Source: Clostridia bacterium (GTDB lineage: Bacteria; Bacillota; Clostridia; Christensenellales; UMGS416). From it: 64,000 bases of DNA. Within the stretch, counting starts at the first letter, position 1. Every line of letters begins with the position of its first letter. The stretch spans positions 62,001 to 126,000 of the forward strand of contig JAFGUF010000022.1 in assembly GCA_016938675.1 (NCBI GenBank), written 5' to 3'. The notes beneath the pieces are model-generated. The model was not told the DNA's origin. It made no database searches and saw nothing but the letters and a program-made list of their open reading frames with translations. The position numbers were made by a program, and so were the translations under genes. Positions 3,700 through 20,134 of the stretch are shown piece by piece.

Positions 3700-3890
3700 C
3701 TGCATACTCTTAGTGTCTCTGTCCCTATTCCTGAGAGATTCCCCTGCCATGCAGAGTTGCCCCGTCGGCCTGCGCGCTGCCGCAGATATCCAGAGTATCG
3801 TCCTACTACGGTCCTTTTACCTGAGAGTTTTCACACACATTCTCCTTCGGTCCTTTTTTCAAAGTGTCTCCCGCAGTTATCATCCGATTA
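3700..3890 (-). promoter_or_regulatory. Tandem glycine riboswitch upstream of gcvT
   Basis: Reverse complement contains GGACCGAAGGAGAA...CTCTCAGGTAAAAGGACC...ACTCTGG followed by GCCGACGGGGCAACTCTGC...AATCTCTCAGGAATAGGGACAGAG, i.e. two glycine aptamer cores; located directly 5' of gcvT. Confidence 0.92.
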
Positions 3891-16860: not shown

Positions 16861-18777
16861 TTATGAGATCTGCTCCAGTTCTCTAGTGAGCCTTTCCCAT
16901 TTTTCTATCTTGATATCCAGCTCAGTTTTCAGCCGGGCTTTGGCTTCCTCTAGGGTAAGCAGCTTTTCAAGGTCGTCTCCGTATTTCATCATCTCTTCGC
17001 CCAAGCTGCTTATTATTTCCTCTATGCTCTCTATTTCTGTTTCCATAGCATTCAGTTTTTTAGCAGCTCTCTGCATCTCGTTCTCTCTCATAGTGTCGAC
17101 GCTTTTGGTCTGCTGCTTTTTGATATAATCCGAGCTTTTTGATTCGGCTTCCTGCTTTATCTCCTGCTTCCTTGCAAGCTCCATCTTGTAATATTCATAA
17201 TCCCCGTTATAGAAGTCTATGCCTTTTCCGTTGAACACAGCTATGCGTCTTGCTACCTTTGCAATGAAATACCTGTCATGCGATACAAAGACTATAGTGC
17301 CTGTATATTCAGACAATATTTCTTCCAGTATCTCTCTGGATTCTATGTCCAGGTGATTTGTCGGCTCATCCAGTATCATCAGATTTACTTTCTCATACAT
17401 CAGGCAGCAAAGTCGAAGCCTGCTTTTTTCTCCGCCGGAGAGCACACTTATCTTCTTGAACACATCATCTCCGGTAAAAAGAACCTTAGCCAGCTCCATG
17501 CGAGCCACAGAATTGTCAATGTTGTACTTGTACTGAAAATAGTCAACAATCGCTTTATCCTCACTTTCAAAGCTGATGCTCTGCGCAATGTAACCTATAT
17601 TGATATTTGCTCCGAGTTTTACTTTGCCTGTATCCGGGCTTATTTCATTAATTAGTATTTTAAGCAATGTTGATTTGCCGCAACCATTGTCCCCGAGGAT
17701 TGCCAGTGAATCCTTAAGATAAACATTAATATCTACATTTTCAAATAGAACATTGCCGGCAAATGACTTACTTAAATTTTCTCCGACAATCGCATCCTTG
17801 CCTGCCCTTTTTGTTTCTGCTGCGCTTAGCCTTAGTTTCTTGTTTTCATAAACCGGCTTGTCCAGCTTATCCATCTTTTCGAGCTTTCTTTCCAGCTGCT
17901 TTGCCTGGGCATACATTTTGTCACTGTCGCGCATTGCGCCCCATATTCTATAACGCTTTATCTGCTCTTGAACTCTTTTTATATCCTTCTGGTTCTGATT
18001 ATAGGCCTTGACCTCCAAATCATATATTCTTCTTTTCTCTTCTACAAAATATGAATAGTTGCCGTGATATACATATGCCTTGTTTGGCGATAACTCAACT
18101 ATTTTCGTTACAGCCTTATCTAGGAAGTATCTATCGTGGGACACTATAATAACAGCGCCTGCATACTGCCCTATGTATTCCTCCAGCCACTCCATCGTAG
18201 ATAGATCCAGATGATTCGACGGCTCATCAAGCAGCAGGAGCGGCGGCTCCTCAAGAAGTATTTTTCCCAGTATTATCTTGGTCTTTTCTCCTCCGCTTAA
18301 TTTGTTAAATTTAGTAGCAAGCATTTTGTCTTCTATTTTCAGGCCCTTAGTTACTTTGCTTATTTTCTCCTCGGTGTCATATCCGCCCTTCATCTCGTAT
18401 TCTAATTGAAGCGCAGCATATTCATCCATAATTTCATCATGGATTTCAAGTACTGCCATTCTCTTCTCAAGGCTATGCATCCTGTTTTTTATTTCCCTTA
18501 TTCCTTCGAATGCAAGTTCCAGAACCATGCTGCCCGTCAAGCTGTCGTCATACTCCGGCATCTGTTCAAGATATCCGGGGACTACACCCTTGCGAAATGC
18601 GACAGTGCCTTCGCAGTCCTCTTTCCCCATAAGTATTTTTAGGATTGTACTCTTGCCCACTCCATTAGGCCCTACCAACCCCACTTTTTCATTTGTCTTT
18701 ATTTCAAAACTAATATTTTCAAATATTTTATCCGCACCAAAAGACTTGGATATATTTTGTATAGAACACTCTATCAT
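16861..18777 (-). CDS. ABC-F family ATP-binding protein (ribosome-associated; possibly antibiotic resistance type)
   Basis: Two ABC domains (GPNGVGKST, GDNGCGKST; two LSGGEK signatures), no TM, PtIM-like linker YRIWGAMRDSDKMYAQAKQLERKLEK, charged C-terminal coiled coil. Confidence 0.9.
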   Translation of the reverse strand: MIECSIQNISKSFGADKIFENISFEIKTNEKVGLVGPNGVGKSTILKILMGKEDCEGTVAFRKGVVPGYLEQMPEYDDSLTGSMVLELAFEGIREIKNRMHSLEKRMAVLEIHDEIMDEYAALQLEYEMKGGYDTEEKISKVTKGLKIEDKMLATKFNKLSGGEKTKIILGKILLEEPPLLLLDEPSNHLDLSTMEWLEEYIGQYAGAVIIVSHDRYFLDKAVTKIVELSPNKAYVYHGNYSYFVEEKRRIYDLEVKAYNQNQKDIKRVQEQIKRYRIWGAMRDSDKMYAQAKQLERKLEKMDKLDKPVYENKKLRLSAAETKRAGKDAIVGENLSKSFAGNVLFENVDINVYLKDSLAILGDNGCGKSTLLKILINEISPDTGKVKLGANINIGYIAQSISFESEDKAIVDYFQYKYNIDNSVARMELAKVLFTGDDVFKKISVLSGGEKSRLRLCCLMYEKVNLMILDEPTNHLDIESREILEEILSEYTGTIVFVSHDRYFIAKVARRIAVFNGKGIDFYNGDYEYYKMELARKQEIKQEAESKSSDYIKKQQTKSVDTMRENEMQRAAKKLNAMETEIESIEEIISSLGEEMMKYGDDLEKLLTLEEAKARLKTELDIKIEKWERLTRELEQIS

Positions 18778-18956
18778 TTTCTCTATTCCTCATTTTAATA
18801 ATTTCAATTCACGAATTATGAAAACGGCTGTCAAAATCGCGCAAACGCATACAAAGACAGAAAAAATAAAGCCTGTGCGTTTACCGCATTAAAATATATT
18901 TTTTTACAGTGGGTACATTAATTACTACTAAAAATGGACGCACTTGTAGTGTGAAA

Positions 18957-19007
18957 TCAGGATTTGGCGCTTAATGTTCTCTTTCCGTACAGCCATACTA
19001 AATTCAT
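18957..19007 (-). CDS. Candidate 16-aa leader peptide (uORF) of the ABC-F gene: MNLVWLYGKRTLSAKS
   Basis: AAAGGA 9 nt before ATG, downstream of a TTGAAT-17-TAGAAT promoter; not in ORF track. Confidence 0.6.
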   Translation of the reverse strand: MNLVWLYGKRTLSAKS

Positions 19008-19040
19008 ACTAACAAGTCCTTTGTTATAAATTGATAGTTT

Positions 19041-19069
19041 ATTCTATCATGGTGCGAAAAAAAATTCAA
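19041..19069 (-). promoter_or_regulatory. Promoter of the ABC-F leader
   Basis: Reverse strand TTGAAT-17 nt-TAGAAT (19069-19064 / 19046-19041). Confidence 0.75.
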
Positions 19070-19120: not shown

Positions 19121-20134
19121 TTATTTATACCCATTAGGATTATTCTTCTGCCAGTTCCATGAATCGCGGCACATATCCTCTATATCCTTGTCCGCCTTCC
19201 ATTTAAGCTCCCGCTCTGCCTTTTTTACATCAGCATATGATTCCGCAATATCCCCTGCCCTTCGCGGCATTATTTCATACTTTATTTCTACATGGTTTAC
19301 TTTTTCGAATGCTTTAACAATATCAAATACGCTATAGCCTTTACCTGTTCCTAGGTTATACGCTTCCGATCCTTTTTTGTTTTCTAAACTCTCAAGTGCC
19401 TTTATATGACCTAAGGAAAGGTCAACTACGTGAATATAGTCGCGCACTCCTGTTCCATCACGCGTTTCATAATCATCGCCGAAAACTCCGAGATATTCTC
19501 TCTTGCCTACCGCAACTTGGGTTATAAATGGCATAAGGTTATTAGGAATTCCGTTAGGATTTTCTCCTATCAGCCCGCTTTCGTGGGCGCCTATGGGATT
19601 GAAATACCTTAATTTGGCTATTGCCCAATCGTTGTCTGATGTGTATAGATCGTCCAGTATTCTTTCTATAAACACCTTAGTTGTTCCATATGGATTGGTT
19701 GCGCTAAGCGGCATATCTTCCTTATATGGAGCAGGGTTATTCACACCATATACTGTGGCAGAGGAGCTGAAAACCATTTTTTTAACATTATATTTTTTCA
19801 TAGCATTAAGCAGCTCCAGCGTGCCTGCAATGTTTACTTTATAGTAATCAAGAGGCTTTTCTACGGATTCGCCTACTGCTTTTAATGCGGCAAAGTGTAT
19901 AACTGCGTCAATCTTATTTTCCTCAAATATTCTGCCTAATATGTCGCTGTCTAATATGTCTCCCTCATAGAAAGATACTTCCTTTGAAGTTATTTGTTTC
20001 ACTCTTTCCAGTGATTTTCTATCGCTGTTTGAAAGGTTATCAATCACAGCAACCTCATAACCTGAATTCAAAAGTTCAACACAGGTATGAGTGCCGATAT
20101 ATCCCGCTCCGCCTGTTATAAGTATTTTCCCCAT
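19121..20134 (-). CDS. galE: UDP-glucose 4-epimerase
   Basis: [37 protein letters not shown]. Confidence 0.96.

Follow-up and report, generated by a model that had tools for sequence, protein, structure and literature searches.

An ABC-F gene of a Clostridia bacterium whose leader appears to be a degenerate member of a conserved, putative attenuator family

Published leaders of resistance ABC-F genes carry upstream open reading frames (uORFs) of 3 to 9 codons (PMC9226507, PMC10201436, PMC12421871). The vmlR leader of Bacillus subtilis has the 3-codon uORF MIN and combines transcription with translation attenuation (PMC9226507); cplR, vmlR2 and lsaA have the short uORFs MR[I/M], MK[L/Q] and MAGN, respectively (PMC10201436); and the leader uORFs of ARE5 genes encode MLV and MVGDDDISG (PMC12421871).

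We analysed a 64,000-nt stretch of contig JAFGUF010000022.1 from a Clostridia bacterium (hereafter the window, to which all positions refer), in which an intergenic region of 329 nt on the minus strand lies between galE (19121–20134) and an ABC-F gene. Like vmlR, this is, by its sequence, an ABC-F gene with its own promoter and a putative uORF that has a Shine–Dalgarno (SD) sequence and a start inside a hairpin; an intrinsic terminator before the gene is a likeness confined to the window's relatives, the window leader having none, and the relatives' uORFs run to 34–57 codons with a conserved C-terminal box, against 3 codons in vmlR. CplR of Clostridioides difficile (uORF MRI) is likewise a clostridial ABC-F under uORF-dependent attenuation (PMC10201436), but its uORF has three residues, the leader box is not shared, and the window protein scores 277 bits against the CplR model, the cut-off of which is 780. 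With msrD the locus would share a leader peptide regulating an ABC-F gene upon exposure to a ribosome-targeting drug (PMC10314930), but neither the window nor its relatives encode a comparable peptide. OptrA and PoxtA (phenicol–oxazolidinone ABC-Fs) have the same resistance-type ABC-F architecture, but both—as also MsrA—fall outside the window's group in our tree, on long branches. Whereas the published ABC-F leaders cited above have short uORFs, the leader family found in the window's relatives has a longer one that carries a conserved box. RppA of Bacillus thuringiensis reportedly has a ribosome-dependent leader, too, which could belong to this family or stand apart from it.

The window ABC-F retains both Walker A, signature and Walker B motifs, and its Pfam domains (ABC_tran twice and ABC_tran_Xtn) correspond to two ABC domains and the ABC-F linker with no transmembrane part. 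It scores 442 bits against the NCBIfam model ribo_prot_ABC_F (cut-off 380), but this model is not discriminating, since the YdiF-like paralogue of the same genome (L039, about 39% identical to the window protein) passes it as well. The models of named resistance subfamilies (Vga, Lsa, Msr, Sal, CplR and OptrA) all leave the protein far below their cut-offs, OptrA scoring highest (342 bits, cut-off 1450). In a tree that did not include Uup, the window protein and two Clostridia proteins of about 50% identity (L045 and L046) form a clade with 100/100 support within a 26-row group (support 94/82) that stands apart from the YdiF-like proteins, EttA and the paralogue; the inter-domain linker is about five residues longer than that of the paralogue (149 versus 144). 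The earlier note on this DNA had taken the gene for something other than a housekeeping ABC-F, and the phylogenetic placement bears this out. On tree, profile and motif evidence, the window protein belongs to a resistance-like group and is probably a ribosome-protection protein. No close copy occurs among relatives in its own family, which, together with its sparse distribution, suggests horizontal transfer of the gene; nor were closer homologues found in its own order, in the orders of genomes G167 and G101, in plasmids or in genome contigs, the scan of the last yielding only remote ABC-Fs. A Staphylococcus saprophyticus plasmid (L147, 1492–3108) encodes an ABC-F that is 41–43% identical to those of the window and L045, is annotated merely as ribosomal-protection-like, and clusters close to the window's clade, together with L154, an ABC-F of Listeria.

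The elements of the window leader are collected in Table 1. The promoter-like site, the small hairpin presenting the SD sequence and the 16-codon uORF are all present as the earlier note described them, and its figure of about 180 nt between the uORF stop and the ABC-F start agrees with the 230 nt that separate the two ATG codons. Comparison with dinucleotide-shuffled versions of the intergenic region (329 nt) puts these elements in proportion: the SD-containing 6-bp hairpin recurs in 1.2% of them and an SD-preceded ATG ORF of 10–60 codons in 12%, so that the uORF by itself is unexceptional, and the promoter scan found two sites where shuffles predict 2.4. In most relatives, however, a similar promoter precedes the leader at the equivalent position, 15–48 nt upstream of the uORF SD.

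Table 1. Features of the ABC-F locus and its leader (window positions).
Feature	Position	Strand	Basis or value
ABC-F ATPase, 638 aa, resistance-like clade	16861..18777	(-)	tree, profile match, motifs
ACGCACAGGCTTTATTTTTT, proposed terminator 3' arm and U-tract; lacks an adequate 5' arm and is not accepted as a terminator	18861..18880	(-)	
Putative residual box AGTGCGTCC (consensus AGTSTGTCC); preceding GGG block missing	18936..18944	(-)	alignment, core HMM
Possible imperfect hairpin joining the uORF SD and start to the bases that precede the box	18936..19020	(-)	-20.2 kcal/mol
16-codon uORF MNLVWLYGKRTLSAKS-TGA	18957..19007	(-)	ATG at 19007, stop at codon 17
Small hairpin TAACAA-AGGAC-TTGTTA with the uORF SD (AGGA 19020-19017) in its loop	19010..19026	(-)	sequence
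Promoter-like site TTGAAT-17-TAGAAT, TG before -10	19041..19069	(-)	9/12 match

A common leader precedes the ABC-F genes of L045, L046, L048, L049, L050, L052, L054, L055, L058, L060, L062 and L093; several ABC-Fs of the window's group (L047, L051, L053 and others) lack it. Its uORF, introduced by an SD sequence, spans 34–57 codons and is open through the box GGGRGAAGTSTGTCC in 23/23 family leaders; in 21/23 the box is in frame, and in this usual frame it encodes the peptide [GR]S[LV]SK. Terminators of -12 to -23 kcal/mol are found in 22 of the 23 leaders. Both sisters of the window protein, L045 and L046, have an intact leader ORF, a terminator (-14.2 and -16.7 kcal/mol, respectively) and a helix (z -3.5 and -3.4). 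This long-range helix pairs the uORF start region with RNA past the box and was significant at p<=0.007 in all ABC-F leaders that were put to the test. Among nine aligned arms, compensatory changes occur in 8 of 12 pairs, and 86% of cells are paired, against 77% in shuffled arms and at most 42% when an arm is slid; the arms having been picked by eye, this covariation evidence is strong yet not independent. The duplex tests and the hand-extracted arm alignment replaced an RNAalifold run on a MAFFT alignment, which gave only three pairs because the helix arms were misaligned. A leader ORF followed by a terminator, as seen in most of the nearest relatives, is by its sequence the architecture of ribosome-mediated attenuation.

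A sequence model of the relatives' leader (R1), run over 391 genomes of the class, brought up further ABC-F leaders and, to our surprise, members that precede major facilitator superfamily (MFS) transporters. A second model (R2), run over 399 genomes of the phylum, matched in nine genomes, which belong to families outside the class and all have an ABC-F downstream of the match. The leaders from the phylum scan (L157–L163) precede ABC-Fs and include those of a family of large genomes (f135, 5.6–6.8 Mb); AGTCTGTCC retains its codons in these leaders outside the class. Model matches before replication-initiation-like genes (L126, L128, L130, L131 and L133) were set aside as chance. Rfam matched the leader neither in the window nor in ten relatives' loci; its two hits in the latter, one a NiCo riboswitch and the other a Clostridiales-2 RNA below threshold, lie elsewhere in those loci. 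The box pattern has no exact match in viral contigs, and two of the leaders, searched for in plasmids, have none there. A text search of the open literature for the leader peptide motifs returned nothing relevant. The leader family is conserved and, as far as Rfam and the open-access literature show, apparently undescribed so far.

The MFS genes that follow the box (MFS_1; L123, L124, L125, L127, L137, L138, L139, L140 and L142) are named by no NCBIfam model at E 1e-60. Their leader peptides end in GRSVSKIxYYVN; the box is common to all of these leaders, the helix present in some only. Such a leader also occurs in the host genome itself: the top R2 match in the whole genome (E 1e-3; G000:C37:27689-27815 (-), locus L144) lies on the same contig, outside the window, where ACCAAGGGGGGAGTCTGCCTATTT and a terminator of -14.4 kcal/mol precede an MFS gene whose product is 45% identical to that of L138. 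This leader has a less pronounced helix (p 0.046), and its best uORF is in a different frame from the box; on its sequence we assign it to the leader family.

In the intact family, a ribosome would translate the 34–57-codon uORF as far as the box and through it. Once transcribed, the SD/start region of the uORF would pair with the RNA that directly follows the box, and the strong terminator would keep transcription from reaching the gene; a drug that stalls the ribosome on the uORF would leave the helix open and so favour read-through. A search for a common antiterminator, in which the leader would pair with the 5' arm of the terminator, found none (the pairing is significant in L093 only); the antitermination step in the family is therefore inferred. 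As a side observation, the nucleotide box is retained in L050, L139, L158 and L144 though the uORF there reads another frame, and persistence of the box through such frame changes hints at conservation at the RNA rather than the peptide level. We tentatively entertain the broader idea that the box GGGRGAAGTSTGTCC and the long helix, not the peptide, are the conserved element, that together they form a new, widespread and general sensor of ribosome-targeting drugs for ABC-F and MFS genes, and that the window copy is its loss-of-repression variant. If the attenuation model of the family is right, one drug-sensing leader would be wired to a whole clade of uncharacterised ABC-Fs, in Clostridia as well as in other classes of the phylum, and to an MFS efflux family in Clostridia; this would predict ribosome-targeting drugs as their substrates and provide a ready reporter for those genes.

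The earlier note read the window leader as a working transcription attenuator, in which a new 16-codon leader peptide would control a long-loop terminator near 18860 through an ACGCA/TGCGT antiterminator. Promoter, SD hairpin and uORF exist, as do complementary stretches, and the relatives do use attenuation-like leaders. The terminator, however, does not hold up: its arms AAATCCTG and CAGGCTTT contain a mismatch (T18962/C18871), the nested pairing needs C18875 twice and closes a 57-nt loop, and the structure reaches merely -4.3 kcal/mol, compared with about -15.8 for the alternative (minimum free energy, MFE) fold of the same stretch. A strict pattern scan of the window leader found no terminator, the most stable compact hairpin (up to 60 nt) that precedes a T-tract has only -1.5 kcal/mol (against the family's -12 to -23), and folding of the whole 257-nt leader gives a stability at the level of its shuffles (z 0.26); we regard such an attenuator as very unlikely. 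A compact translational attenuator is an unlikely explanation, too. Here, the hairpin 18936–19020 and a U-rich tract (18868–18860) paired with the ABC-F start AGAGAAAATG would be rearranged by a stalled ribosome; the hairpin around the uORF start is borderline (z -1.8 to -2.0, p about 0.05), the MFE fold of the whole leader does pair the U-tract with the ABC-F start region, and CplR provides a precedent in which translational attenuation can suffice (PMC10201436). Against it stand the overall fold, no better than shuffles (the downstream half has z -0.3), and the absence of comparative support, the genomes examined containing no close relative of the locus and no close strain by which selection on the short uORF could be judged.

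The remaining alternative, to which we give little credence, is that the uORF arose by chance and that the 5' region is an ordinary long untranslated region unrelated to the leader family. The frequency of such uORFs among shuffles and the ABC-Fs of the group that do without the leader are compatible with this, and neither R1 nor R2 matches the window leader significantly. But the leader is present in both sisters, and the window leader occupies the place expected of a member, upstream of an ABC-F of the leader-bearing clade and with a promoter spacing like that of the family. The window peptide VWLYGKRTLSAK aligns to LWIGFKRNMTAK of the L045 leader (p 0.006) in the same order and spacing; summed over all family members, the similarity has p=0.195 for the peptide and p=0.023 for the DNA, all of these residual-similarity tests having been selected after looking at the data. 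The putative residual box begins at codon 22, in frame with the uORF but five codons past the TGA, and lies 17 codons from a shared Trp, the same distance as in L045; it is also the top match of a core-motif HMM in the entire window, yet with an E of only 1.1. When the window leader was tested for the long helix that joins the uORF start to the RNA beyond the box, the result was z -0.3 and p=0.33. The idea that TGA is read here as an amino acid was ruled out, TGA being a normal stop that ends 12 of 33 long ORFs in the host genome. Similarity to the family is thus residual and weak, but with intact leaders in both sisters in the tree, descent with loss is the simplest account, and the 16-codon uORF is probably what is left of the 5' part of a longer, conserved leader ORF rather than the new leader peptide that had been proposed.

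We therefore favour, with moderate confidence, the reading that the window leader is a degenerate family member and that its ABC-F gene is expressed constitutively or, at the most, under weak (translational) regulation. The gene would be transcribed from its own promoter with a 5' leader of about 260 nt descended from the conserved attenuator. In this leader the ORF now ends at codon 17, the box lacks its GGG block, and neither the long helix nor the terminator would have survived. With terminator and helix gone, transcription should mostly run on into the gene even when no drug is present. Some translational control might persist through the borderline hairpin in the uORF start region, and given this hairpin the window leader could possibly be a shorter, rewired but working attenuator. 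Drug inducibility of the ABC-F, as put forward in the earlier note, is thus likely for the clade, where most nearest relatives have leader ORF and terminator, and unlikely in the proposed form for the window locus, because terminator and switch helix are missing and the uORF ends before the box. If the favoured reading is true, the window copy would show how an attenuated gene can lose its repression in nature.

Elsewhere in the window, two Rfam RF00504 matches mark a tandem glycine riboswitch at 3717–3883 (-).
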